The notes beneath the pieces were generated by a model. It saw only the letters and a program-made list of their open reading frames with translations. It had not been told where the DNA came from and did not search any database. Shown here in pieces: positions 1,367 through 38,863 of a stretch of DNA of 41,432 nt. Origin of the DNA: a virus; IMG/VR virus record IMGVR_UViG_3300010370_000076, positions 1 through 41,432 of that record; one strand, written 5' to 3'. Numbering within the stretch: position 1 is the first letter of the stretch; each line of letters starts with the position of its first letter. A program made the translations under genes and the position numbers.

Positions 1367-1372
1367 TCCCCG

Positions 1373-1401
1373 TGTAAAGTGCAACCGCCGGGCTGTATCC
1401 T
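1373..1401 (+). promoter_or_regulatory. Phage promoter TGTAAA-17-TATCCT
   Basis: TGTAAA (1373-1378) and TATCCT (1396-1401) are separated by 17 bases. The start codon of the next gene begins 6 bases later, at the expected transcription start, so a leaderless message is predicted. This is one of about twenty sites of this form in the window. Confidence 0.75.
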
Positions 1402-1844: not shown

Positions 1845-2192
1845 ATGAAGATCAAGGTTGGAGAATTGAGGCGCGCGATCCGTGAAGTGGTGGCTGAGGC
1901 CTACGTCGACCCGAACGCCGCAGCCCTCAAGTCGCTCGCGAAGCTCGCCGTCGCCGACATGGCCGCGGGCGGGACGCCCGAGGACGTCTACGAGTGGCTC
2001 GTCGCCGAGACGGACCTGGGCGACGGACAGCACCGCGCCAACGCGGTCGTGGTGCTCATCAAGAAGTCGGACCCAGCCGCTGGGGCTGCGCTCGCCGCCG
2101 TGGCGAAGCCCCTGCCTCCGCCGCGCTACGTCGCGCCGTGGTCGGGAGCCTCGGGCCGCGTCGCCACGAAGATGTACGACTCCGACGTGTAA
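1845..2192 (+). CDS. Unknown protein with N-terminal MKI-type leader (115 aa)
   Basis: The start (MKIKVGELRRAIREVVAEAY) matches the leader shared by five proteins here. It contains V-A-E-A at residues 16-19, again resembling a prohead-protease site. The remaining 95 residues are Ala/Val-rich and helical, then Pro-rich (LPPPRYVAPWSG), with no known domain. A good ribosome-binding site (CAGGAG, then eight bases to ATG) fixes the start. The gene ends inside the -35 box of the promoter for the next gene. Confidence 0.75.
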   Translation: MKIKVGELRRAIREVVAEAYVDPNAAALKSLAKLAVADMAAGGTPEDVYEWLVAETDLGDGQHRANAVVVLIKKSDPAAGAALAAVAKPLPPPRYVAPWSGASGRVATKMYDSDV

Positions 2193-2216
2193 ACCTGCGT
2201 CGCCGTTGTGTATACT
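2188..2216 (+). promoter_or_regulatory. Phage promoter TGTAAA-17-TATACT
   Basis: TGTAAA (2188-2193), 17 bases, TATACT (2211-2216). The -35 box overlaps the end of the previous gene. The ATG at 2224 begins 7 bases after the -10 box, so the message is predicted to be leaderless. Confidence 0.8.
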
Positions 2217-4692: not shown

Positions 4693-4701
4693 AGTGATCA
4701 G

Positions 4702-4730
4702 TGTAAACTGATGTCTGAATTTTGTAGTGT
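4702..4730 (+). promoter_or_regulatory. Phage promoter TGTAAA-17-TAGTGT
   Basis: TGTAAA (4702-4707), 17 bases, TAGTGT (4725-4730). The ATG at 4737 starts 6 bases after the -10 box. No ribosome-binding site is possible in the predicted message. Confidence 0.75.
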
Positions 4731-7733: not shown

Positions 7734-7738
7734 CTCCG

Positions 7739-7767
7739 TGCAAACTCATCCGCATTTGAGGTATCAT
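7739..7767 (+). promoter_or_regulatory. Phage promoter TGCAAA-17-TATCAT
   Basis: TGCAAA (7739-7744), 17 bases, TATCAT (7762-7767). The ATG at 7774 begins 6 bases after the -10 box. Confidence 0.8.
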
Positions 7768-7773
7768 AAGAAC

Positions 7774-8010
7774 ATGATCAAGGTCAATCCTAAAGCACAG
7801 GTTGCAAATACGTTCTTCGATCTCTTCGGAAGCGATCATGAAGTCGAAGTTCGGGGTTCGCGTCAGCGTGCTCGTGGACTCTACCTCACGGAAATCAATG
7901 TCGACGGCAACGTCGTCGCCCGTGCGAGTCATCAAGATTGGCGAAAATCTTATAAAATGTTGAGGACAGAGGTCGAAAAATTGTACGTCGACGGCCTCGC
8001 TCTCGTGTAA
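7774..8010 (+). CDS. Unknown small basic protein, leaderless (78 aa)
   Basis: The product begins MIKVNPKAQVANTFFDLFGS and continues with a strand-rich basic stretch (HEVEVRGSRQRARGLYLTEI). The frame is open for 147 further codons upstream, but that overlaps the previous gene; this ATG is fixed by the promoter. No family recognised. Its last codons overlap the -35 box of the next promoter. Confidence 0.65.
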   Translation: MIKVNPKAQVANTFFDLFGSDHEVEVRGSRQRARGLYLTEINVDGNVVARASHQDWRKSYKMLRTEVEKLYVDGLALV

Positions 8011-8034
8011 AGTAAAAACTCTAAATGTTAAACT
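8006..8034 (+). promoter_or_regulatory. Phage promoter TGTAAA-17-TAAACT
   Basis: TGTAAA (8006-8011), 17 bases, TAAACT (8029-8034). Here the message has a leader of about 24 bases containing AAGGAG ahead of the ATPase start at 8065, so this promoter form also drives conventional leaders. Confidence 0.75.
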
Positions 8035-8064: not shown

Positions 8065-9195
8065 ATGTCGAACATGTCCATCAAGACCTTTCTCTCTGTC
8101 GCTGAAGTTCTCCCGATCGAGACTTCTGTTCTACTCCGTGGTCCCCACGGCATCGGCAAGAGCCAAGTGGTTCGTCAAGTCGCAAAGTCCTTCGATCTCC
8201 CGGTAATCGATCGCCGTCTTTCGCAGATGACCGAAGGCGACATGGTCGGTCTCCCAAGCACCGACGGCGAAGTGACCCGCTTCAATCCTCCTGATTGGTA
8301 CAAGCGTGCGTGCACCACGCCTGTGTGTCTCTTCCTCGATGAGCTGAACCGAGCCACCCCGGAAGTTATGCAGGCAGCCTTCCAGATCGTTCTGGATCGT
8401 GAGCTGAACGGCTGGCAGCTTCACTCGGAGACTCGAGTATTCGCAGCAGTCAATGCCTCTGCAGCCTATACCGTCAACGAGATGGATCCGGCTCTCCTCG
8501 ACCGCTTCTGGACGATCGACCTCGAGCCTACCGTTGAGGACTGGCTCACCTGGGCTCGTTCGGAAGGTGCAGACGATCAGCCTCGAGTCTACAGCGTCAT
8601 CACCGACTTCATTGCAGGCAACGAAAAGTGGCTCGACTCGCCCAAGGACGCGGAGCCCGGAAAGGTTTCTCCCAGCCGTCGTTCCTGGGAGCGTCTCTCT
8701 GACGCTCTCACCAAGGCAGGTATCGCTCAACTCGATGAACCTGCAAACAACACTCTTTTCTATCCAATCTGCCTCGGATACATCGGAACTGAAGCTACCA
8801 TCGCTCTCAACGGATTTGCGAAGACGATCGATGCTCAGGTTTCCGGTGAGCAAATCATCAACGAATACGACAAGGTTAAGAAGAAGGTCAAGAAGCTCGG
8901 CGCTGAGAAGCAAAACATTCTCATTGACAAGGTTACTACCTATGTCACCAAGGACCTGAAGACTCTCAACGACAAGCAGGGCAAGAATCTTCAAAACTTC
9001 ATGAATGATCTTAGCGAAGAACATCGGGTTTCGTGCTGGTCTAAGATGACGCAAGGCAGTGGAACTGACAATCTTGAGCTTGCTAAGTCCATTCACAAGT
9101 GGTGTGTCGAGGGAATCCTCGCTTCGTTCGGGGTTTCCGCTGACGCAGCAGTAAAGGCACTTACCGCTAGCTCGAAGAAGAAGGCAGAGAAGTGA
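8065..9195 (+). CDS. MoxR-type AAA+ ATPase (376 aa)
   Basis: Walker A is GPHGIGKS at residues 26-33 and Walker B CLFLDELNRA at about 87-96. Sensor-type sequence (VFAAVNAS) and an arginine-finger region (DPALLDRFWTIDL) follow, the order of MoxR ATPases. MoxR proteins act as chaperone-like motors that usually pair with a von Willebrand A-domain protein. A DUF2201/VWA protein is encoded 23 kb away at 32584-33960 and is driven by the same promoter form, so they probably work together. The C-terminal 130 residues are Lys-rich and helical. Start supported by AAGGAG. Confidence 0.9.
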   Translation: MSNMSIKTFLSVAEVLPIETSVLLRGPHGIGKSQVVRQVAKSFDLPVIDRRLSQMTEGDMVGLPSTDGEVTRFNPPDWYKRACTTPVCLFLDELNRATPEVMQAAFQIVLDRELNGWQLHSETRVFAAVNASAAYTVNEMDPALLDRFWTIDLEPTVEDWLTWARSEGADDQPRVYSVITDFIAGNEKWLDSPKDAEPGKVSPSRRSWERLSDALTKAGIAQLDEPANNTLFYPICLGYIGTEATIALNGFAKTIDAQVSGEQIINEYDKVKKKVKKLGAEKQNILIDKVTTYVTKDLKTLNDKQGKNLQNFMNDLSEEHRVSCWSKMTQGSGTDNLELAKSIHKWCVEGILASFGVSADAAVKALTASSKKKAEK

Positions 9196-10272: not shown

Positions 10273-10305
10273 GGGTTACACGATTCTCGCAGGTGATTAT
10301 CTCTG

Positions 10306-10334
10306 TGTAAACTGCTGAATCAAGATGTTAGGTT
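10306..10334 (+). promoter_or_regulatory. Phage promoter TGTAAA-17-TAGGTT
   Basis: TGTAAA (10306-10311), 17 bases, TAGGTT (10329-10334). The ATG at 10341 begins 6 bases after the -10 box (leaderless). Confidence 0.8.
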
Positions 10335-10673: not shown

Positions 10674-10687
10674 CTAGCTTAAACGCG

Positions 10688-10716
10688 TGCAAAGATACAC
10701 TCTTCCGTGGTAGGGT
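10688..10716 (+). promoter_or_regulatory. Phage promoter TGCAAA-17-TAGGGT
   Basis: TGCAAA (10688-10693), 17 bases, TAGGGT (10711-10716). The ATG at 10723 begins 6 bases later (leaderless). Confidence 0.8.
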
Positions 10717-14111: not shown

Positions 14112-14112
14112 G

Positions 14113-14141
14113 TGCAAATTGATCTCTCGCCGGTGTAGAAT
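14113..14141 (+). promoter_or_regulatory. Phage promoter TGCAAA-17-TAGAAT
   Basis: TGCAAA (14113-14118), 17 bases, TAGAAT (14136-14141). A leader of about 20 bases with GGAGCGAGAG precedes the ATG at 14169. Confidence 0.75.
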
Positions 14142-14479: not shown

Positions 14480-14481
14480 GG

Positions 14482-14510
14482 TGTAAAATCTCTTAAACGT
14501 AACGTATATT
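14482..14510 (+). promoter_or_regulatory. Phage promoter TGTAAA-17-TATATT for tRNAs
   Basis: TGTAAA (14482-14487), 17 bases, TATATT (14505-14510). Transcription would begin about 5 bases before the first tRNA, so tRNA genes use the same promoter form. Confidence 0.8.
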
Positions 14511-14521
14511 GTTTCTCACTT

Positions 14522-14603
14522 GGAGGGTTACCCAAGTAGACAAAGGGAGAAGACTGTAAATCTTCCGGCTCCGCCTTCGTAGGTGCAAATCCTTCACCCT
14601 CCA
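14522..14603 (+). tRNA. tRNA-Tyr (GTA)
   Basis: Acceptor GGAGGGT/ACCCTCC, anticodon stem GAAGA/TCTTC with loop CTGTAAA (anticodon GTA), a long variable arm as in bacterial tRNA-Tyr, and discriminator A. The T-arm has one mismatch and a TGCAAAT loop. CCA is not encoded. Confidence 0.85.
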
Positions 14604-14613
14604 CTCAATTTCA

Positions 14614-14698
14614 GGAACGTTGGCCGAGTGGCTAATGGCAGCTGTTTACTAAACAGCCGTGGATAAAACCACCGCAGGTTCGAATCCTGCACGTTCCG
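14614..14698 (+). tRNA. tRNA-Ser with anticodon ACT
   Basis: Acceptor GGAACGT/ACGTTCC, anticodon stem GCTGT/ACAGC with loop TTACTAA (anticodon ACT), a long variable arm closed by GTGG/CCAC and discriminator G, all as in tRNA-Ser. The T-arm GCAGG-TTCGAAT-CCTGC is perfect. An A at the wobble position for AGU/AGC codons is unusual in bacteria and phages, where GCT is normal. CCA is not encoded. Confidence 0.85.
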
Positions 14699-14714
14699 CG
14701 AAAGAAAGATATCA

Positions 14715-16395: not shown

Positions 16396-16462
16396 TTCGT
16401 GCGAGGTTTCCACCATCCCGCCTCAAAGTTAATTCTGTAAGATCGTATATGATCTCTCCCGG

Positions 16463-16491
16463 TGCAAAGTTGGGGAGGGATGTTATATCCT
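16463..16491 (+). promoter_or_regulatory. Phage promoter TGCAAA-17-TATCCT
   Basis: TGCAAA (16463-16468), 17 bases, TATCCT (16486-16491). A leader of about 28 bases carries ATGAGG ahead of the GTG at 16526. Confidence 0.75.
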
Positions 16492-18065: not shown

Positions 18066-18073
18066 AGCAATCG

Positions 18074-18102
18074 TGCAAAGTTTCACCTCCGCGATTTACA
18101 AT
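18074..18102 (+). promoter_or_regulatory. Phage promoter TGCAAA-17-TACAAT
   Basis: TGCAAA (18074-18079), 17 bases, TACAAT (18097-18102). The ATG at 18110 begins 7 bases after the -10 box. A GGAGGTG just before the ATG would lie upstream of the predicted start of transcription. Confidence 0.75.
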
Positions 18103-23378: not shown

Positions 23379-23667
23379 GCTTCGAAAGCTAATTAGAAAA
23401 GTCTTGTCCGAAGGACCAGCTGGGCCTGCAATTACTGCAGATCCTACAGACGTGAAGGGTTTCTATCCTTACGAGATAGAACGCGGAACAGACATATTCG
23501 GATACTGGTATAAGTCTCCGGGTGACAAAGGTAGTAACGACCCCGGGCGCCCCGAAGACGCCGCCGAATATATTGGATTTAAGACAAAGGGAGCGACTCC
23601 GGAAGACGCCGCAGAGGAGGCTGCTCCCGAAGTAGAAGAAGTTCCTTCTGAACCTTCTGAAGTGTAA
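23359..23667 (+). CDS. Acidic protein with N-terminal MKI-type leader (102 aa)
   Basis: MKIRISELRKLIRKVLSEGP is the leader, with a clean prohead-protease-like L-S-E-G at residues 16-19. An ATG two codons earlier (23353) is possible, but the aligned leaders all start at the M of MK. The body is Gly/Asp/Tyr-rich then Glu/Pro-rich (EEVPSEPSEV), low in structure. Near-identical leaders in overlapping neighbours point to duplication or to strong selection on the leader itself. Confidence 0.65.
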   Translation: MKIRISELRKLIRKVLSEGPAGPAITADPTDVKGFYPYEIERGTDIFGYWYKSPGDKGSNDPGRPEDAAEYIGFKTKGATPEDAAEEAAPEVEEVPSEPSEV

Positions 23668-23691
23668 AGTTAGATACACATAATTTAATGT
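23663..23691 (+). promoter_or_regulatory. Phage promoter TGTAAA-17-TAATGT
   Basis: TGTAAA (23663-23668), overlapping the upstream stop, 17 bases, TAATGT (23686-23691). The ATG at 23698 begins 6 bases later (leaderless). Confidence 0.75.
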
Positions 23692-23918: not shown

Positions 23919-23991
23919 TGACCGGTAGCCAAATGGTAAGGCAGGGAGCTGTTAACTCCCCTACGTGTAGGTTCGATTCCTACCCGGTCAG
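23919..23991 (+). tRNA. tRNA-Asn (GTT)
   Basis: Acceptor TGACCGG/CCGGTCA, D-arm GCC...GGC, anticodon stem GGGAG/CTCCC with loop CTGTTAA (anticodon GTT), T-arm GTAGG-TTCGATT-CCTAC, discriminator G. CCA is not encoded. Confidence 0.95.
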
Positions 23992-24002
23992 CAAAGGTAA
24001 AA

Positions 24003-24245
24003 ATGGCAAGAGTTAATAATTTTGATACCAAGGCAGAAACACCTCTACCAGAGTTACAAAAAGCTTTGGCTTCTTTGAAGCCTGGTGAAAAAGTGAAATG
24101 TCCGAGTTCGAAATTAGAAATTCTCAAGGTTCAAGAGAACATTACAAAAAGAAGACATGAGATACCAGGTGCAGATTCACACCTCGAATATATTGAAGCA
24201 ATGATCATTGCAGAAGCAGAAGGCAAGTTAGAGTTTAGGAAGTAG
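24003..24245 (+). CDS. Unknown small protein between tRNAs (80 aa)
   Basis: Starts 11 bases after the tRNA with AAAGG upstream. Mixed charge, helical second half (LEYIEAMIIAEAEGKLEFRK). A PGEKVKCPSSKLEIL strand-like segment recalls the small barrel proteins, but the fit is weak. No function can be assigned. Confidence 0.55.
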   Translation: MARVNNFDTKAETPLPELQKALASLKPGEKVKCPSSKLEILKVQENITKRRHEIPGADSHLEYIEAMIIAEAEGKLEFRK

Positions 24246-24259
24246 AGATACTTCATCTT

Positions 24260-24345
24260 GGAAGTTTGGCCGAGTGGTTTAAGGCGTCAGTCTTGAAAAC
24301 TGAAGTGGTTAATAGCCACCGCGGGTTCGAATCCCGCAGCTTCCT
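24260..24345 (+). tRNA. tRNA-Ser (TGA)
   Basis: Acceptor GGAAGTT/AGCTTCC, anticodon stem TCAGT/ACTGA with loop CTTGAAA (anticodon TGA), long variable arm GTGG...CCAC, T-arm GCGGG-TTCGAAT-CCCGC. The discriminator position reads T rather than the usual G. CCA is not encoded. Confidence 0.9.
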
Positions 24346-24440
24346 CTCCAATTCCCTGAAGGATTGGACACGCGTTCCTTCGTGTTAATTTCTTGTAGGT
24401 GAAAGCGATCAAGGAACAATAGATCGTGAGTAACCAATCT

Positions 24441-24513
24441 GGAACCGTAGCTCAGGTGGTAGAGCTGCGGACTTTTAATCCGTAGGTCGTGGGTTCGAAT
24501 CCCACCGGTTCCA
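24441..24513 (+). tRNA. tRNA-Lys (TTT)
   Basis: Acceptor GGAACCG/CGGTTCC, D-arm GCTC...GAGC, anticodon stem GCGGA/TCCGT with loop CTTTTAA (anticodon TTT), T-arm GTGGG-TTCGAAT-CCCAC, discriminator A. CCA is not encoded. Confidence 0.95.
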
Positions 24514-24533
24514 CTATAGACTATAATAGAAAC

Positions 24534-25432: not shown

Positions 25433-25544
25433 GATCTTTAAATATCGAAAAACAAATAAATTTGTACGCTCTAGTCTTGTATTGTAGATTGATCTTGTTG
25501 TTTGGAATTTGCCAATCAACTTTGTCTTTCAACTTGTCAACCAG

Positions 25545-25573
25545 TGTAAAGGTCATCTCAGAGTTGTTATACT
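25545..25573 (+). promoter_or_regulatory. Phage promoter TGTAAA-17-TATACT
   Basis: TGTAAA (25545-25550), 17 bases, TATACT (25568-25573). The ATG at 25586 lies 12 bases after the -10 box, giving only a few bases of leader. Confidence 0.75.
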
Positions 25574-26453: not shown

Positions 26454-26759
26454 ATGAAGAAGAACAAGAAGAACAGCAATGACTTTGTTGGCGGTTTTGA
26501 AAATCACAATCTTCCGAGCGTAGTTGACATGGACGCACTTTCTTACTACGACGATGAACACCTCGACCGATATCACAGTCACCTACAGGCGGAACGTGAA
26601 AAGGTCGCACATGTCGGAGGAAATTCTCATGCATGGGAGGTTGAAATTTGTTATGCTCAACGCGAAATGAAGATTCGTAATGCTCGAAGGATTGCACACG
26701 AAAAGTACGTTCGAATGAACCCAGATCTCTTCCAGGACAACAGCTTCTCTTACGAATGA
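26454..26759 (+). CDS. Unknown charged protein (101 aa)
   Basis: Basic N-terminus (MKKNKKNSND), then a long helical segment (YYDDEHLDRYHSHLQAEREK, later CYAQREMKIRNARRIAHEKY) typical of a short coiled coil. GTGAGAAGAAGA lies upstream. It directly precedes the sigma-factor operon. No family recognised. Confidence 0.6.
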   Translation: MKKNKKNSNDFVGGFENHNLPSVVDMDALSYYDDEHLDRYHSHLQAEREKVAHVGGNSHAWEVEICYAQREMKIRNARRIAHEKYVRMNPDLFQDNSFSYE

Positions 26760-26789: not shown

Positions 26790-27608
26790 ATGTCTTCTAA
26801 AATCGCAGCGAGCGATGCTGGTACGCTTGGCGCTTATCTAAAAGATCTTAGGTCTCATCCTCAACTTAAGCACCCAGAAGTAATTTCACTTTTTCAAGCT
26901 TACGAGGCAGGCGGCACTGCAGGCGAAAGAGCTCGAAGAAAGCTTGTTGAAAGCAATCTTCGTCTTGTAATATCGATTGCTAAGAAGCAAAAGGGGCACA
27001 CTATTCCGCTGGAGGATCTCATCCAGGAAGGAAATATGGGGCTTCTTAAAGCGATCGAAAGATTTGATTACAAGAAGGGATTTCGCTTCTCGACGTACGC
27101 GACGTGGTGGATTAAGCAGGCAATTAGTCAACACGTGCTAAAGCACAAGCGAATGATTAGACTCCCTGCTCACGTCGCCGGCATCCAGCGTAAGCTTCTT
27201 CAAGAGACTGAAAAATTCAGAAAGATGACGGGTGAGGAACCTACCCAGGAGGAGCTCCGTACGCTCGTAGATGCATCTGAAACCATCATGAAGGCCACGA
27301 TCGCATCGGGATACAATATCGTTTCTCTCGATCAGACTTGGAGCAACGGAGGTTCACCGAGCGCTGACACCAAGACTATCGGAGAGAGCATAGAAGATTC
27401 TGATAAAAAGAAGGATCCTTTCTATAACGTTTCCTCCAAAGAGCTCATGGAAGTCGTTAGGCACGTCCTTTCAAGCCTCTCGGAGAAAGAGGCTGCAATT
27501 CTCAAGTTAAGGTTCGGTCTCTTTGATGAAGAAGAAGTCACAAGCGAAGACTATCTTCTTACAGAAGAAGAAGCTGAAGATTTGACGAATGGAATCCCAC
27601 TCAAATGA
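26790..27608 (+). CDS. Phage RNA polymerase sigma factor lacking region 4.2 (272 aa)
   Basis: Region 1.2 (residues about 10-45) and region 2 (50-126) are well kept: [35 protein letters not shown], and the -10-reading [12 protein letters not shown] then RMIRLPAHV. Region 3 spans about 126-182. Region 4.1 is present ([19 protein letters not shown], 226-244), but an acidic tail ([19 protein letters not shown]) stands where the region 4.2 helix-turn-helix that reads the -35 box should be. Region 4.2-like sequence is encoded two genes downstream. It likely redirects host RNA polymerase to phage promoters. Confidence 0.9.
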
Positions 27609-27817
27609 CACCTTCACTGCTGAATTACATAGAATTACCGATCTTGGGTCTTTTGTTAATCCAGCAATTTCGAATTCAAAGAAAAATCGATTCTTTGACA
27701 GACATCCTTGAAGATCTCGTTGAATCTCAGCAATCTTCAGCAGGAGCAGAGCAAGACTTAAATAGAAGACTTGCCGAGATACAGACAATGAGATTCTCCA
27801 GCATGGTGCACAAATGA
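27605..27817 (+). CDS. Small membrane/coiled-coil protein inside the sigma operon (70 aa)
   Basis: ATGA-coupled to the sigma gene on one side and to the helix-turn-helix gene on the other. A hydrophobic N-terminal segment ([15 protein letters not shown], residues 7-21) precedes a coiled-coil-like helix ([20 protein letters not shown]). It could anchor something at the membrane or bridge the two sigma pieces; nothing in the sequence decides this. Confidence 0.6.
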
Positions 27818-28098
27818 AAAAGAGCAAAGACAACAATTCGGTTTACGCAACTGTCACTTTTGAAGAAGGCGTAAACTATAGAGAGATTGCTGAGATGATG
27901 ACAGAGATTGGTTTTAAGATGAACCACTCCTCTGCTAGAAACTACGTTTTGCGTGTAATGCGAAAGTTTGCAGAAGCGCTATGCGAAAGCTGGGATTTAG
28001 ATTTACCTGATCACAAGCTTGATAAGATTGTAAAATCTCCCGCCTTTCAAGCGGCAATTTGTGAAATTCTTCAAAAGCTAGACGAGAGCGGGGAATAA
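27814..28098 (+). CDS. Sigma region 4.2-like helix-turn-helix protein (94 aa)
   Basis: Residues 19-52 (GVNYREIAEMMTEIGFKMNH, then SSARNYVLRVMRKFAEAL) follow the layout of a sigma-70 region 4.2: a first helix with REIA, a turn, then a recognition helix followed by a basic helix, where the bacterial consensus has EEIG...TRERIRQIEAKALRKLR. It is a free-standing gene coupled (ATGA) two positions after a sigma factor that lacks this part. I infer it is the -35-reading module or co-activator of that sigma. The C-terminal 40 residues are acidic/helical. Other helix-turn-helix roles remain possible. Confidence 0.7.
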   Translation: MKKSKDNNSVYATVTFEEGVNYREIAEMMTEIGFKMNHSSARNYVLRVMRKFAEALCESWDLDLPDHKLDKIVKSPAFQAAICEILQKLDESGE

Positions 28099-28099
28099 A

Positions 28100-28462
28100 A
28101 TGCGACTCCAAAAGAAAAGTCTTTCTAAAATAAATCTAACAGACCTTCTAAGAAAAAAGAGATCGAACCTAGAAATTTTTCTAAAGGAGACGGGTATCTT
28201 CTCGTATGAGCTTCTTGTTTCTAGATGCGCTTCCATCGGTGTTGTACCTCCTTCAGAATCAGAGTTTCTTAAGATCAGAGGAAACAATCCAACTCCTTCT
28301 GTGTCTTCTCCTACGGAAGGAATCGTAGTTCTAGCACCGATCGAAACAGACGAACCAGAACCTTCTGAAGAAGTAGAAAATTCTTCTATCGAAGAAGAAG
28401 AAAATCATGTAATTTCTGACTCTTCTGCAAAGAAGCGCCGAAAAAATCGGCCAAAAGAATAA
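28100..28462 (+). CDS. Unknown protein with basic head and acidic tail (120 aa)
   Basis: The first 35 residues are very basic (MRLQKKSLSKINLTDLLRKK). The middle is helical and the rest Ser/Glu/Pro-rich and probably disordered (EPEPSEEVENSSIEEEENHV), ending in KKRRKNRPKE. One base separates it from the helix-turn-helix gene, so it is the last gene of the sigma operon and could modulate transcription. No family recognised. Confidence 0.55.
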   Translation: MRLQKKSLSKINLTDLLRKKRSNLEIFLKETGIFSYELLVSRCASIGVVPPSESEFLKIRGNNPTPSVSSPTEGIVVLAPIETDEPEPSEEVENSSIEEEENHVISDSSAKKRRKNRPKE

Positions 28463-29372: not shown

Positions 29373-30092
29373 ATGCTCCAAGAGATCGAAAGACAAGATA
29401 CTAAAAAGATCATCTCTAGACTCGTCTTGCAAAAGATTTTGCAGCACGAAGTATGCAAGTTTCTCGACAAGCGGCGCTATGAAGAGCTAGGGCAATCTTT
29501 TCTCTCCAGTGAGCCTGACAGAGAGCAAAGATTCGACTTTAAGCTTCAGAAGAATGTTGCAGACAAGTACTACGCTGCCATTGCTGACTTAACAATCAAG
29601 TGGATCAGCGATGATATTGAAAATCAAGATCCTGACGGAAATGTCTGGAAGACTTGCACGCTAAAGCTCATTACTGGTATGTCTTCGCGCTGGAACTCTA
29701 ACGTTTTTGAACTTGCAGAGAGAGCTGAGTGCATTGGACTTCTTTCTTCTCTCGCTTCTGAATTGTACGAACTCGCAGGACACCCGCTTCAGATTCAGGT
29801 CCTCAACAATGATCAAAGAATCGCCAGAGATCTTAAAAGAAAGTACGATGCCGCCTGCGACGAGATCTCCAGGTTCATCCGGTGGCAGGCTCCCGATCTT
29901 CGCCGAGGATTGCGACTCGGAGGCAAGGCACGCACATTCCAGCGTGAGATCTTTGCGAAGATCAAGGTTGAACCTGGACACTACGAGTTCAGCGTGAACG
30001 ATGGATCCAACAAAAGCCCGAAGTACAAGAAATACTCCGTCACGATCCCGGAAAATCCCGCCTATCTCTGTGCGATCAAGCGCGTCTCGTAG
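29373..30092 (+). CDS. Unknown protein (239 aa)
   Basis: Starts 1 base after the preceding stop, with AGGAAA upstream; the longer upstream frame is ignored. Mostly helical and charged (EIERQDTKKIISRLVLQKIL, then AACDEISRFIRWQAPDLRRG), with a strand-rich basic C-terminus (KVEPGHYEFSVNDGSNKSPK). No recognised domain. The codon pattern becomes more GC-rich towards the end, matching the following ligase gene. Confidence 0.65.
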   Translation: MLQEIERQDTKKIISRLVLQKILQHEVCKFLDKRRYEELGQSFLSSEPDREQRFDFKLQKNVADKYYAAIADLTIKWISDDIENQDPDGNVWKTCTLKLITGMSSRWNSNVFELAERAECIGLLSSLASELYELAGHPLQIQVLNNDQRIARDLKRKYDAACDEISRFIRWQAPDLRRGLRLGGKARTFQREIFAKIKVEPGHYEFSVNDGSNKSPKYKKYSVTIPENPAYLCAIKRVS

Positions 30093-30121
30093 TGCAAAGT
30101 CACACTCAAAGAGAATATACT
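30093..30121 (+). promoter_or_regulatory. Phage promoter TGCAAA-17-TATACT
   Basis: TGCAAA (30093-30098), beginning right after the previous stop, 17 bases, TATACT (30116-30121). The ligase ATG at 30129 begins 7 bases later (leaderless). Confidence 0.85.
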
Positions 30122-32511: not shown

Positions 32512-32548
32512 TTGGAATTTTCCTTTATATTTATAAGATGTGCAGCAG

Positions 32549-32577
32549 TGCAAACTTGGCACAGATTAGGTTAAGGT
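32549..32577 (+). promoter_or_regulatory. Phage promoter TGCAAA-17-TAAGGT
   Basis: TGCAAA (32549-32554), 17 bases, TAAGGT (32572-32577). The ATG at 32584 begins 6 bases after the -10 box (leaderless). Confidence 0.75.
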
Positions 32578-32583
32578 AAGACC

Positions 32584-33960
32584 ATGGCTGAAGAAATCAA
32601 AAACGAAGAATCCGCACAGACTGTCGGCAGTTTCGAATCTTGCGAAACTGACTTCAACCTTGGACGGCACCTGATTAGCTTTCTGCAGGACAATCCTTTC
32701 TTTGCAGAGCTGTCCCGACACATTCAGAAGACTTCGACGAAGTCGCTTCCGACTGCAGCTGTAGCTTTCAACGAGAAGACGGATGAACTGACTCTCCTCT
32801 GGAATCCCGACTTCTTCTCGAAGCTTTCTCAGTGGGAAGTTCGCGGCGTTCTCACGCACGAATATTACCACCTCGTGTTCGGTCATCTCTATGGCCGCCG
32901 CCGTCAGCCTCCACAGCTTTGGAACATTGCTACTGATCTTGCTATCAATAGCGTGATCATGGATGCTGCAAAGCACGGAAACGGAAATCGCTTGCAAGGT
33001 GAACGACCCCTCCCGGAGTTTTGTTTGATTCCGGGTTTTAGGCCCAAGCACCCTGAAGGTCGTGAATACACGAAGGATGAAGAGCAAGCTCAAAAACTTG
33101 CTGCAATCATTGAAAAGCTTCCTCCCATGAAGGCTTCCGAGTGGTACTTCGAGAAGATCAAGGAGGAGTCTGATAAGGACAAGGCTAACGGCGGAGATGG
33201 TTTTGACGGCGAAGGCGATGGAACCGAATATGTGATCGGCACGCTCGACGAGCACGGAACGTGGCAGGAAATTCCTGACGACAAGAAGGAATACGTTCAG
33301 GGCAAGGTAAAGGCAATCGTCGAGAAGGCAGCCAAGCACGCCGACTCTCAGGCCAACGGATGGGGTAACATTCCAATCGATCTTGCAGATCAGATTCGAA
33401 AGTCTGTGACGAGTGTCATCAATTGGCGAAATGTCCTTCGTCAATTCGTCGGTTCAATCACACGCGGCGGGCGGTCCACGTCGATTAAGCGGATCAATCC
33501 GAGGTATCCGTACATTCATCCGGGCATCAAGCGTGGCTACACTGCTAAGCTTCTAATCGCAATCGATCAATCGGGATCAGTATCAAATGAAATGCTCTCT
33601 GACTTCTTTGCTGAGCTTAGCACTCTGACGAAGAAGGTCTCTATTGACATTCTTCCTTTTGATACGGTTGCCTTTGAAAAAGATCTCTACGAGTGGCGTC
33701 GTGGAACTAACCATCCTGCGAAGCGCGTCCGCGGCGGCGGAACCGACTTCAATGCACCGACGAAGTTCGCGAATGATCCGCGTAATCGAGGTCGCTGGGA
33801 CGGTCTTCTCATCATGACCGACGGTGAATGTGATTCACCCGGACCTAGCAGGATCAAGCGCGGATATGTCCTGGGTAAAGGACAAAAATTGTTCTTTAAT
33901 ACGAATGATATTGTCATCAAGATGGACGAAGTAAACACCACGGAAGGCTCGTGGCGTTGA
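32584..33960 (+). CDS. DUF2201-type protein: HExxH-like domain plus VWA-like domain (458 aa)
   Basis: The N-terminal domain has LTHEYYHLVFGH (H92, E93, H96), the putative metallopeptidase motif of DUF2201. A charged linker (about 185-290) leads to a VWA-like domain with IAIDQSGSVSN (D328-x-S-x-S metal site) and a later MTDGE. DUF2201/VWA proteins are usually partners of MoxR AAA+ ATPases. The MoxR gene lies at 8065-9195 and shares the promoter form. Together they may remodel or mature a phage or host complex. This is inferred from the family pairing. Confidence 0.85.
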   Translation: MAEEIKNEESAQTVGSFESCETDFNLGRHLISFLQDNPFFAELSRHIQKTSTKSLPTAAVAFNEKTDELTLLWNPDFFSKLSQWEVRGVLTHEYYHLVFGHLYGRRRQPPQLWNIATDLAINSVIMDAAKHGNGNRLQGERPLPEFCLIPGFRPKHPEGREYTKDEEQAQKLAAIIEKLPPMKASEWYFEKIKEESDKDKANGGDGFDGEGDGTEYVIGTLDEHGTWQEIPDDKKEYVQGKVKAIVEKAAKHADSQANGWGNIPIDLADQIRKSVTSVINWRNVLRQFVGSITRGGRSTSIKRINPRYPYIHPGIKRGYTAKLLIAIDQSGSVSNEMLSDFFAELSTLTKKVSIDILPFDTVAFEKDLYEWRRGTNHPAKRVRGGGTDFNAPTKFANDPRNRGRWDGLLIMTDGECDSPGPSRIKRGYVLGKGQKLFFNTNDIVIKMDEVNTTEGSWR

Positions 33961-34664
33961 TCAATCAGCCTCTCACTCTCGCAACTCCAAGGCCTCCCGT
34001 GGTGATGATTACCTGTCCCACGGGAGGTTCCATTCATACTGACACGGTCAAGTCTCTCTTGATGCTTCAAGCAGACATGCAAAGGAGAGGTCTTCGCCAT
34101 TACTTTAACTTCTCCAAGAGTTCTTTCCTTCCGCACGGCCGCGCACAAGTGTGCGGAGCTTCTCTCGAACGAGGAAAGTACCAACAACCGTACAATACGA
34201 AGGAGATCACTCACATCTTTATGGTAGACAGTGACATCGAGTTCAAACCAGAAGATTTCTGGCGATTATGGAGTCACAATGTCGCTGTAGTTGCAGGAGC
34301 ATACTGCTACTCTACAGAAGCACTTTCTTCGGAAGAAGAAAAGCGGATAGTTGCAGGTACGTGGGACATCGATTTCTTTAAGACTCATTACACTTTCCCG
34401 GCATACACACTGGGTCAAGCCAGAAATCTGGCGAATCCACTTCTCGAAGTCGACTGGCTTGGTCTTGGATTTGCTCTGGTTAGGACAGAAGTATTCTCGA
34501 AAATTGAGTACCCGTGGTTCAATTCAGAATTAATCGTAATTGACGATCTGCGCGATACAACGTCGGAGGACGTTGGATGGTGCCGAAAAGTGAAGGCAGC
34601 AGGATACAAGATTATGCTTGATCCTGCTGTCAAGGTGGGACATCAGAAGACTGTAACGATTTAA
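33951..34664 (+). CDS. GT-A-type glycosyltransferase-like protein (237 aa)
   Basis: MVDSDIEF at residues 91-98 gives the D-x-D metal/nucleotide-sugar site (D93, D95) of GT-A enzymes. SEDVGWCRKVKAAGYKIMLD near the end fits the acceptor-side ED motif. Phage enzymes of this kind modify DNA bases, virion proteins or host surface sugars. The start is GTG 33951 or TTG 33957, both overlapping the preceding gene's end, so it is coupled to the VWA protein. Its stop overlaps the tail-fibre stop on the other strand. Confidence 0.75.
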   Translation: MALINQPLTLATPRPPVVMITCPTGGSIHTDTVKSLLMLQADMQRRGLRHYFNFSKSSFLPHGRAQVCGASLERGKYQQPYNTKEITHIFMVDSDIEFKPEDFWRLWSHNVAVVAGAYCYSTEALSSEEEKRIVAGTWDIDFFKTHYTFPAYTLGQARNLANPLLEVDWLGLGFALVRTEVFSKIEYPWFNSELIVIDDLRDTTSEDVGWCRKVKAAGYKIMLDPAVKVGHQKTVTI

Positions 34665-37600
34665 GGCAGACTTGACTTTATCGATTCAATCTCTCGCTTT
34701 AACGTCTCGTTTTCTTGCTTAAGTTGCTTCAAAGCATCTACAATGTAAGGAATGAGATCGTCTTGATATATTGTCTGAGTAACCATAGATCCGTCTTCTG
34801 CGGTTGCATCTTTGCTTCCTGAAACAAGATTTGGGAATACTTCTTGCATTTCATGTGCAATAAATCCAACTCTCGTTCCGAGCTTCTCTGGTTGGTTGAC
34901 GAAGTTATTGTATTCGTACGTTACTGGGTTGAGGTTGATCAACTTTTCAAGTGATCCCGTAAGAGAAGTGACATTTTTCTTTGTCCTATAGTCCGAAAGG
35001 CTTGGATAAGAGTAAGAATAGACAGCAGCCCATGCAATATTTACTCCCCACTGCAGACCAAGAACGTATGTGTTATCAGCATTAGGTAGTATGCTGTTTG
35101 TGTAGAACACACCTCCCGGATCCATGGTTACCTTTTCTGCACCACCGATATACCAGGAGTGTCCATTTCCTGCTGCGACGCTGTAGTCCATTTTACCTGA
35201 GGACACACCGATTCCCATTACAGTTCCCACTCCGTCATCGTAGAGCCTTAACTTAGAGTTCGCACCTGCGGTGCTACTGTATGTTCCTCCTAGCGATATT
35301 GCATCAGGAGTCGATGTAGAAGCCGGGGTATTCGATCCAATCTGTAGATTTTGAAGCGGATTTGTCGTTCCAATTCCGACCTTACCGGCCACACCATTCT
35401 CTGCAGTTATGACCATTCCTACTGTCGGAGTTGAAGAGCTCCCACCAGTCAAGAATCTCAAGGATTTTCCTGATTCTGATGTGTAACAGCTCAGCTCTGT
35501 ATTTCCTGAAGAAGTAACAGAAAGAGATCCCGCTCTCACAACAGGACCGCTAGGATTATATGTTGCAAAATAATAACCAGAGGTAACATTGTTGCCATCT
35601 TTTGTACCTACACCGTAGGTAAGAACAGAAGCATTATTGTTGTCCCTATAGACGGTCAAGGACGTGCCAGCCACTGCTGAAGTACCAATTCCAACGTCAC
35701 CGCTTCCGCTAATATGAAACAGTGATGTTCCACCTGAGTTCTGTACGTTCACAACAGGAAGGTCTGATCCGTTTGCCACATTGTGGCGAACCAAGAGAGT
35801 TGTGTCAGATCCCGTGGAGGTTCCTTGAACGTGAAGTCTTGCCGCCGTTATCGTTGAAGTTCCTATTCCAACACCCGAGGCATTAATTCTCATTGCTTCA
35901 GTAGTATCAGCTAGCTGAAAAAGATGATTCTGTGCCTTATAAGTGTTTATTGAGGATCCATACTGCTGACCCACAATTAGAGCAGAAGCCAAATTACCAG
36001 TATAGCTGCTTGAAACATAAAGCCTTATGAGAGAAAGCCCTGAATCATTTGTTCCGATTCCGACGCCTCTGCTACCGCTAGCATATAAAATAGGAGAGCC
36101 TGAAGAGTCTTGGACATCTAGTACTCCTACGCCCGCCGCAGAATTTACTCCTGCTCGGACGACCACTGTTGGTGCTGTAGATGATGACGAACCTGAAACG
36201 TAAAGACGAGAACTATAAGAATAAGTTCCGATTCCAACATTACCGCTCGTGTCTATTCTCACTCTTTCAACGTCGCTTGTCGTATTAGTGAAGACGATTG
36301 GTCCACTATCAAGATTCTTGATGAGAAGTTGTCCTTGATACTGAGAGACAAAGGCATTTTGAGTTGCAGAACCGCCTCTATTCAGTTGCAGATATGAGCC
36401 GTCTGAGCTACCGTCGAGAACTACGTAGGAGTTACCCGTCCCATCCGCTCTAAGAGAACCGACTACGTGCAGCTTATTTACAGGATTAGAGGTTCCAACA
36501 CCAACGCTTCCGGCGGAGTTTATCCTCATTAGCTCTGTACCAGACCCCCAGTTGCCGCTATACCACCTGAAGGATCCGTCTCCTTCTGATCCCACGTGCC
36601 AGTTTTGTGTGTTAGTGGAACTATCTCCAAACTGTGCATATCCATACCCGCTACCGGCCGCATGATTGAGCTTTAGTGCGGGGGAAGAGCCTCCGTAGCC
36701 TGAAGAGCCGATGTGCAGTCGAGCATCTGGGACTGCAGTTCCGATACCAACGTTCCCTCCAGAAGTAATTCTCATCTTCTCTGCATTTGCCGTCCCTAGA
36801 ACGAGAGGTTCTGATTGAACTGCGAGAAGAGTCAAAGCTCCAACGCCGTTGCCGCCGTACAAGTTCATGTATGCAGTTCCTGCGTGTGAGAGCCTGATGT
36901 CCGGAATTCCGTTGCTTTTACTCACATCGAGTGCAGCTCCAGGCGATGTGTTTCCGATACCTATTTTTCCATCACGAGTAATGCGCAGTCTCTCTGTAAG
37001 TGATGTACTTGACGTGCTCGATCGAGTAGAGACAGCCAGGTCACCTGTTGTATTCCCTGAGCCATCGTAGAGCAATCCTTTTATAGCGGCGAAGCCAACA
37101 GAATTTGCGTTGTCTCCCTGATAGTTGGTGAAAAGGATGCCACCGCCCGAACCCTGCGTGTTATCGTTGTGACTTATTCGAATGAAGCTTCCCCTGTCAC
37201 CCGCATCCGTTATGGCTGCAGTAGTCTGACCATTTCCGAAAACATGCAGCTTGCTCCTCACGGCCGTTGTGCCGATTCCTACGTTTTGTGAAGCATTAAT
37301 TCTCATGGCTTCGACGCCGCCCGTGTCGAACGCCATATTGCTCGCCACCAGACCACCCCAGATTCTCCACATCGATTGCAGGTCATCAAGCTCGTCTCTA
37401 TAGAGGCTTGACAATTCATTGGTGGACGCACCGCCTGGGGCTTCGGTATTTCCTCCCACCAAGTAAACCTTGGACCCGTAGTCTGCTCCCGCTTGCTCAA
37501 ATTTTACTCTTAGATCAGCGAAGTTTGTCGTTTGGTATACGTTGAGTTTGTAAGAAGAATCGTGAGAAGTCGATCCAATTCCAACACTTCCTGTCGCATA

Positions 37601-38863
37601 GACAAAAGCAGATGATGGTGAAGACCAGTATTCAGGAGATGACCCGCCGCCCGAAGCAGTAGACGAAATTGTCACTGAACCATTTGAACCTGTCGTGATC
37701 GTGACGTTACTGCCTGCTACAAGATATGATGAACCATCAGTTAGCTTCGTAAGAGAACCACTTAGACCACTACCACTTACGAATATTATTGAGTTTCCTT
37801 GATAGTCTTTGATGTCAAGAAGCGCGCCCGTAGGTGAAGAGACGCCTGATTTATAGACTATTCCCTGATCTGTTGCTGTTGAGGATCCTGAGACTAGAAA
37901 TCTTGCTGTATTTGCAACAAACCCGAGGTTCCCGCCAGCAAGAATGTTGCCGTTACTGTCGATTATTAGGCGCTGTGTAGTTCCGTCGCCTCCATAAAAA
38001 GTGTGCTGCAGAGACGTGTATGTGCTGGTTGCAACCCCAAAGACGTTTGGTTCTCCTACCTTAATTCCAAATGAAGATCCTGCATATGTTCCCGATACAT
38101 GAAACAGGGCACTTGGCCTATTTGTACCTATACCTACACGCCCTCCGATCGTCGCGCGGGTGCCCGACACGAAGAGAATTGATGTTCCTGAAGAATTCTG
38201 AACATCAAGTAGACCAACATTACCCGTAGGAGAAATAACTCCTCCCTTTATTACAGCGGTAGGTTGAGATGCAGTCGAAGACCCTGAAACATAAAGGCGT
38301 CCTGTTGCTGAATTAGTACCTATTCCAACATTAGACCCGTCGTCGCTCACGATGCTGTTGCCAATCGTGCCTGCAGCAGTAAATTTAGAGACAAATCCTG
38401 AAGTTCCGCTTCCGCCCACGCCGCCGCCTGCGCCAGAAAATTGCGTCCAAGACATTGCAGTGACGTCCACAGATATTTCTCCCGTGGTCGACATTATGTA
38501 AATTTTTCCTGAATTAGTGCTGCCTTCTTCGACGTACGTAGTTGCACCGCAGCTTATTGTTCCTGATCTTGCATCAGATGCTCTAGTAAGAACATAGCTG
38601 TTCTCCGTCACTTCATAGAAGTAAATTCCATTTTCGCTCCCAGAGCTTTGATCTTTTAGGAGGACTCTATCTTCGTCTGAGAGCGTCACGTCGTCTATAA
38701 CAAGTGGAGTCGAACCCGCGAGGGCGACGCTGGTGGTCGAAGCAGCTCTTACAGACTTCTTCCAGTCTAGTGTTTCGTCAACTATAACCTCTAGCAGTTC
38801 AGTTTTTGGTTGAACTCTATAATACGAGTAGGTTTTCCTATATCTTTGAGAATCTCTAGACAT
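34661..38863 (-). CDS. Tail fibre with C-terminal intramolecular chaperone (Peptidase S74) (1400 aa)
   Basis: Residues about 40-140 match the tail-fibre entry domain (DRVLLKDQSSGSENGIYFYE). The long shaft is built of repeated VGIGT..(P/S)...LHVSGS units, typical of trimeric beta-structured fibres. The C-terminal 115 residues are the S74 chaperone, with LSDYRTKKNV holding the auto-cleavage Ser and Lys, later TRVGFIAHEMQEVFP, and a terminal coiled coil (LKQLKQENETLKREIESIKS). The chaperone trimerises the fibre and cuts itself off. The fibre probably determines host binding. By far the largest gene in the window, on the minus strand. Confidence 0.95.
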   Translation of the reverse strand: MSRDSQRYRKTYSYYRVQPKTELLEVIVDETLDWKKSVRAASTTSVALAGSTPLVIDDVTLSDEDRVLLKDQSSGSENGIYFYEVTENSYVLTRASDARSGTISCGATTYVEEGSTNSGKIYIMSTTGEISVDVTAMSWTQFSGAGGGVGGSGTSGFVSKFTAAGTIGNSIVSDDGSNVGIGTNSATGRLYVSGSSTASQPTAVIKGGVISPTGNVGLLDVQNSSGTSILFVSGTRATIGGRVGIGTNRPSALFHVSGTYAGSSFGIKVGEPNVFGVATSTYTSLQHTFYGGDGTTQRLIIDSNGNILAGGNLGFVANTARFLVSGSSTATDQGIVYKSGVSSPTGALLDIKDYQGNSIIFVSGSGLSGSLTKLTDGSSYLVAGSNVTITTGSNGSVTISSTASGGGSSPEYWSSPSSAFVYATGSVGIGSTSHDSSYKLNVYQTTNFADLRVKFEQAGADYGSKVYLVGGNTEAPGGASTNELSSLYRDELDDLQSMWRIWGGLVASNMAFDTGGVEAMRINASQNVGIGTTAVRSKLHVFGNGQTTAAITDAGDRGSFIRISHNDNTQGSGGGILFTNYQGDNANSVGFAAIKGLLYDGSGNTTGDLAVSTRSSTSSTSLTERLRITRDGKIGIGNTSPGAALDVSKSNGIPDIRLSHAGTAYMNLYGGNGVGALTLLAVQSEPLVLGTANAEKMRITSGGNVGIGTAVPDARLHIGSSGYGGSSPALKLNHAAGSGYGYAQFGDSSTNTQNWHVGSEGDGSFRWYSGNWGSGTELMRINSAGSVGVGTSNPVNKLHVVGSLRADGTGNSYVVLDGSSDGSYLQLNRGGSATQNAFVSQYQGQLLIKNLDSGPIVFTNTTSDVERVRIDTSGNVGIGTYSYSSRLYVSGSSSSTAPTVVVRAGVNSAAGVGVLDVQDSSGSPILYASGSRGVGIGTNDSGLSLIRLYVSSSYTGNLASALIVGQQYGSSINTYKAQNHLFQLADTTEAMRINASGVGIGTSTITAARLHVQGTSTGSDTTLLVRHNVANGSDLPVVNVQNSGGTSLFHISGSGDVGIGTSAVAGTSLTVYRDNNNASVLTYGVGTKDGNNVTSGYYFATYNPSGPVVRAGSLSVTSSGNTELSCYTSESGKSLRFLTGGSSSTPTVGMVITAENGVAGKVGIGTTNPLQNLQIGSNTPASTSTPDAISLGGTYSSTAGANSKLRLYDDGVGTVMGIGVSSGKMDYSVAAGNGHSWYIGGAEKVTMDPGGVFYTNSILPNADNTYVLGLQWGVNIAWAAVYSYSYPSLSDYRTKKNVTSLTGSLEKLINLNPVTYEYNNFVNQPEKLGTRVGFIAHEMQEVFPNLVSGSKDATAEDGSMVTQTIYQDDLIPYIVDALKQLKQENETLKREIESIKSSLP

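Follow-up and report, generated by a model that had tools for sequence, protein, structure and literature searches.

A phage sigma factor that ends before its -35-reading helix-turn-helix (HTH) raises the question of how the -35 region of its promoters is recognized. Such a protein is encoded in IMG/VR virus record IMGVR_UViG_3300010370_000076, a 41,432-nt (41.4-kb) stretch of DNA which was analyzed over its full length and is referred to below as the window. An earlier note on this DNA proposed that the sigma protein stops soon after region 4.1 with an acidic tail, that the missing region 4.2 is supplied by a stand-alone HTH protein encoded in a coupled downstream gene, and that this division could explain an unusual TGYAAA -35 box (Table 1).

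The 272-aa product of the sigma gene is a member of the sigma-70 family without a complete region 4. It matches Sigma70_r2 (Pfam PF04542, 1.6e-22), and it matches Sigma70_r4 over profile positions 1-22 of 50 only, i.e., the 4.1 half. The protein ends about 29 residues past the region-4.1 motif LRFG, in an acidic tail devoid of the 4.2 HTH, exactly as had been claimed. Region 2, which binds the core enzyme and reads the -10 box, is found in all 45 sigma relatives, and region 3 (PF04539) is detected in 43 of them. About 130 viral homologues stop at about the same point and all the relatives are truncated, while the 80 closest bacterial sigma factors all have a complete region 4.2 (e.g., TLEEVGK..VTRERIRQIE). 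The region-4.1 residues L230, E234, I237, L240, R241, F242 and G243 are invariant among the truncated proteins, which is expected if region 4.1 still packs against a 4.2 module.

The sigma-anchored search of IMG/VR gave 80 loci (called fam1), and an HTH homologue is encoded just downstream of the truncated sigma in every one of them. Searches anchored on the HTH protein found a truncated sigma just upstream and on the same strand in 105 of 105 loci; the two sets share contigs and contain near-duplicates. There is no sigma-HTH fusion among these 105 loci, and no single ORF matches both proteins. A second clade, for which "marine" is a working label only, was reached through a divergent member (L110). 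Its HTH gene directly follows the truncated sigma in 51 of 51 cases, so that the pairing holds for 131 of 131 truncated-sigma loci in IMG/VR. The same search found no HTH gene beside five phage sigmas that have an intact region 4.2, and none occurs at 80 bacterial sigma loci with an intact region 4.2. The presence of the separate HTH gene is therefore perfectly complementary to that of an intact region 4.2. Since it is kept in all the close and all the distant relatives, the pairing is not due to chance.

In the window, the sigma gene, the small gene that follows it and the HTH gene are coupled by ATGA overlaps at both junctions (27605-27608 and 27814-27817). The small genes that start at 26454 and 28100 have homologues in both clades, and the core cassette thus consists of the upstream gene, the sigma gene, the HTH gene and the downstream gene. 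The membrane/coiled-coil gene that the earlier note placed between the two sigma parts is indeed present in the window and in fam1, but it is absent from the marine clade, where the sigma and HTH genes are adjacent and abut or overlap. Being restricted to one clade, it does not belong to the core cassette. Its 70-aa product has an N-terminal hydrophobic segment (15-residue hydropathy of 2.0 in the window and mostly 1.8-3.0 in relatives), followed by a coiled coil and by a conserved C-terminal motif, DLNxRLxxLQxMRFS.

Table 1. Features of the split sigma locus and GTGYAAA promoter sites in the window.
Feature	Position	Strand	Basis or remark
Conserved small protein upstream of sigma	26454..26759	+	homologues in fam1 and 25 marine ORFs
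Phage sigma-70 factor, regions 1.2-4.1, no region 4.2, acidic tail	26790..27608	+	Pfam, homologues
70-aa membrane-anchored coiled-coil protein between the two sigma parts, fam1 only	27605..27817	+	hydropathy, motif, ATGA overlaps
94-aa HTH protein, proposed trans-acting region 4.2, recognition-helix core KMNHSSARNYVLRVMRKF	27814..28098	+	AlphaFold2, profile, linkage
Conserved small protein downstream of HTH gene	28100..28462	+	homologues in fam1 and 29 marine ORFs
Promoter GTGYAAA-N17-TANNNT	1372..1401	+	ATG 6 nt after -10
Promoter GTGYAAA-N17-TANNNT	2187..2216	+	ATG 7 nt after -10
Promoter GTGYAAA-N17-TANNNT	4701..4730	+	ATG 6 nt after -10
Promoter GTGYAAA-N17-TANNNT	7738..7767	+	ATG 6 nt after -10
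Promoter GTGYAAA-N17-TANNNT, before ATPase gene at 8065	8005..8034	+	motif scan
Promoter GTGYAAA-N17-TANNNT	10305..10334	+	ATG 6 nt after -10
Promoter GTGYAAA-N17-TANNNT	10687..10716	+	ATG 6 nt after -10
Promoter GTGYAAA-N17-TANNNT	14112..14141	+	motif scan
Promoter GTGYAAA-N17-TANNNT, before tRNA-Tyr (start 14522) and tRNA-Ser	14481..14510	+	motif scan
Promoter GTGYAAA-N17-TANNNT	16462..16491	+	motif scan
Promoter GTGYAAA-N17-TANNNT	18073..18102	+	ATG 7 nt after -10
Promoter GTGYAAA-N17-TANNNT	23662..23691	+	ATG 6 nt after -10
Promoter GTGTAAA-N17-TATACT heading sigma operon	25544..25573	+	motif scan
Promoter GTGYAAA-N17-TANNNT, before DNA ligase gene	30092..30121	+	ATG 7 nt after -10
Promoter GTGYAAA-N17-TANNNT, before gene at 32584	32548..32577	+	ATG 6 nt after -10

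Sequence comparisons make it likely that the 94-aa protein is homologous to sigma region 4.2. AlphaFold2 models it with a mean pLDDT of 81 and with helices at residues 22-31, 38-60, 66-74 and 76-92. The predicted succession of a scaffold helix, a turn, a long recognition helix and C-terminal helices is the region 4.2 layout that had been proposed. The profile of the HTH family matches the combined profile of sigma region 4 with a probability of 77% (E 2.1e-5, score 31), a value that is suggestive only, since, in this test, known sigma-4 profiles also match HTH families unrelated to them. The maximum score of column-shuffled nulls is 17. Sigma region 4 is the best of the HTH families tried (GerE 10%, HTH_3 0.4%, HTH_7 0.3%), although group-1 region 4.2 alone gives a weak match (probability 1.4%). 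A significant assignment to sigma region 4 came from no HMM library and from no PDB sequence or fold comparison: there was no convincing match in Pfam (none above cutoff), PHROGs, PDB sequences, or PDB and BFVD folds. In the PDB, no fold matched the model at E <= 0.001 and no sigma chain was among the matches, which may be explained by the small size of the HTH domain and by its longer turn. No homologue was found in cultured phages or bacterial genomes.

In the profile alignment YREIAEMM is aligned to TLEEVGKQF and MNHSSARNYVLRVMRKF to VTRERIRQIEAKALRKL, a register which corresponds to helices 3 and 4 of sigma-4 with an HTH turn about 5 residues longer. A genuine region 4.2 with a long turn (TLEETGADMGKEFGKAITRERVRQIQ) occurs in the sigma factor of Vibrio phage VAP7 (L438), and it could represent an intermediate form leading to the HTH family. 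In sigma-70, the contacts with the -35 bases are usually credited to R584, E585 and Q589. If the register is right, H38, S39 and N43 of the HTH protein would be their counterparts, and this replacement fits a changed -35 box.

The window contains 15 exact GTGYAAA-N17-TANNNT sites, compared to 0.05 expected, all of them on the + strand, which is also that of the sigma gene. When the spacer is varied from 8 to 26, there is a sharp peak at 17 only. An unbiased scan of 5-mers and spacers over 48 non-redundant fam1 loci puts GTGCAAA-N17 at the top (z 20.6). In the same scan, the marine clade has GTGTAAA-N16 as its top element for TATAMT, and bacterial DNA, used as a positive control, yields TTGACA-N17. 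In 24 fam1 contigs (1.90 Mb) the N17 motif is matched 201 times vs. 6 for a reversed-pattern control, and in nine phages with an intact region 4.2 (1.91 Mb) 8 times vs. 6. Similarly, the N16 motif has 166 matches vs. 28 for the control in 28 marine contigs, and 8 vs. 12 in the nine phages with an intact region 4.2; GTGYAAA-N17 is near background in the marine clade, whose spacer is 16. The -35 element thus lies 16-17 bp from the -10 box, within the 16-18 bp taken for a region 4.2. Host-type TTGACA promoters show no spacing peak in the window or in fam1, and no second -35/-10 class was detected there. The -35 box therefore goes together with the split pair in two clades that differ in base composition, the link with the HTH protein being correlative. 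The unusual box of the earlier note is thus real, and its proposed origin in a missing module supplied as an extra gene is supported by the complementary distribution of the two parts and by the presence of the box in both split-pair clades and its absence from phages with an intact region 4.2.

An ATG lies 6-7 nt past the -10 hexamer at 10 of the 15 sites of the window and at 28 of 52 fam1 sites, so that leaderless mRNAs are probable for many of these genes. In 31 of 62 fam1 relatives, a motif occurs 1.0-1.5 kb ahead of the sigma gene; together with the site that heads the sigma operon in the window, this suggests autoregulation. Among 67 aligned sites, cytosine is nearly missing from the four positions that directly precede TANNNT, which suggests an extended -10 contact. 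The window also carries five tRNA genes (Tyr, Ser, Asn, Ser, Lys) at 14522-14699 and 23919-24514, the first pair of which follows a GTGYAAA promoter. The 1400-aa tail-fibre gene (34661-38863) is on the - strand, where there is no GTGYAAA-N17 promoter, and late genes may use another promoter class.

The reading we favor, with a probability of a little under 0.8, is that the sigma and HTH genes encode a single two-subunit phage sigma factor which is split inside domain 4 and whose HTH part reads the -35 box. The 272-aa protein, with regions 1.2-4.1, would bind the host core RNA polymerase, read the TANNNT box through its region 2 and open the DNA. The cut in its domain 4 would separate helix 2 from helix 3. 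The 94-aa protein would contribute the HTH and a C-terminal helix, dock on region 4.1 and so complete domain 4 on the beta-flap, from where the HTH would read GTGYAAA in trans, upstream of the -10 box by about the length of a sigma-70 spacer (16-17 bp). The resulting holoenzyme is predicted to transcribe the replication-type genes of the phage and also its own sigma operon, in a positive loop.

An alternative which is improbable, but the best of those considered, is that the HTH protein was recruited separately, as an activator binding to the -35 region and contacting a sigma factor devoid of region 4, in the manner of T4 MotA with remodelled sigma-70. A phage activator can indeed replace the -35 contact (PMC2988021), and standard libraries give no significant sigma region 4 match for the HTH family. 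In the T4 system of MotA and AsiA, as is proposed here, a phage protein newly contacts the -35 region. However, MotA works with the remodelled host sigma-70 and its box is 12 +/- 1 bp from the -10 element (PMC2988021), whereas here the sigma factor is that of the phage and the spacing of 16-17 bp corresponds to sigma-4. A recruited activator would also not be expected to be encoded always beside sigma, exactly where region 4.2 is missing, nor to align with sigma-4 in the register of helices 3 and 4, and the conservation of region 4.1 in the truncated sigmas argues in the same direction.

It is slightly less probable still that the GTGYAAA-N17-TANNNT sites are early promoters read by the host holoenzyme, that the sigma-HTH pair serves another class, and that the correlation between the two merely reflects shared hosts. 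Start-up would then be simple, since the sites lie ahead of replication-type genes and of the sigma operon itself. In the two-subunit reading, if the sigma operon is on the same promoter as the genes it controls, something else must start the positive loop; as this start-up is unexplained and no host-type promoter class was detected, the use of these promoters by a host sigma keeps some probability. Against it, GTGYAAA is not a usual -35 box (the bacterial control gives TTGACA), it is common to two clades whose base compositions are very different and not to the phages with an intact region 4.2, and there is no sign, in the window or in fam1, of the second promoter class that the pair would then serve.

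The possibility that the sigma factor works without any -35 recognition, the HTH protein being an anti-sigma factor or an unrelated regulator, is a distant one. The late promoters of T4 (PMC2988020) and of a kayvirus (PMC7698491) do lack a -35 box, but the promoters described here have a strict one, at a fixed spacing. A programmed frameshift that would join sigma and HTH into one full-length sigma is the least credible proposal: many marine pairs overlap by 4-14 nt, but a separate 70-aa gene intervenes in the window, and a conserved frameshift is rejected because the marine junction offsets represent all three frames, gaps included.

The proposed two-subunit sigma can be compared with several known systems. 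The term split sigma has been applied to T4 gp55/gp33, in which gp33 occupies the sigma-4 site on the beta-flap, reads no DNA sequence and is encoded far from gp55 (PMC2988020). Both T4 and the present phages thus have a sigma factor without a normal domain 4 and a small second protein, but here the second protein has an HTH, there is a -35 box, region 4.1 is kept and the genes are adjacent. The HTH protein has no sequence similarity to T4 gp33 or T4 DsbA. As in Bacillus phage SPO1, whose accessory protein gp33 and divergent late sigma gp34 are encoded side by side, the two genes are neighbors; unlike here, SPO1 gp33 has no HTH, gp34 retains a weak, degenerate region-4.2-like C-terminus, and the HTH protein shows no similarity to SPO1 gp33.

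In Bacillus subtilis SigO/RsoA, the functions of sigma-2 and sigma-4 are divided between two co-encoded proteins (PMC8103513). The split of SigO/RsoA falls between domains, whereas here sigma-2 and sigma-4 are not simply on separate proteins: the cut is inside domain 4 and the 4.2 HTH is on the small part. Membrane regulation of SigO/RsoA is reported in a work cited in PMC10141391 (its ref. 46), and this recalls the membrane gene between sigma and HTH in fam1, whose product is possibly, by analogy, a membrane regulator of the sigma factor. The phages Synechococcus S-H34 and S-CREM2, Vibrio VAP7 and Microcystis MaAM05 also have sigma factors of the sigma-70 family, but these keep a recognizable region 4.2, have no HTH-family partner beside sigma and lack the GTGYAAA promoter class. 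In none of the T4, kayvirus, SigO/RsoA and SPO1 systems is domain 4 cut internally, with a separate gene for the half that reads the -35 box, and the open-access literature, to which the survey was confined, gave no description of such a sigma system.

Domain 4 of sigma is regarded as a single folding and flap-binding unit. It is reasonably probable, if less so than the two-subunit reading itself, that widespread uncultured phages have a sigma factor split inside this domain, with the -35 HTH as an independent, co-encoded subunit that has its own GTGYAAA code, so that recognition needs a composite domain made of two proteins, coupled in one clade to a membrane-anchored third protein. A natural 4.1/4.2 split kept across many phages would, if true, show -35 reading to be a function that an exchangeable subunit can carry, and GTGYAAA-N17-TANNNT would be the target of a two-part orthogonal promoter system. 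A review on T4 asks why a fused gp55-gp33 sigma does not exist (PMC2988020), and the phages with a split sigma would be an intermediate which makes this question testable. The analysis also proposes a function for an HTH protein family that is missing from Pfam and PHROGs, and it offers a promoter model for the annotation of these phages.
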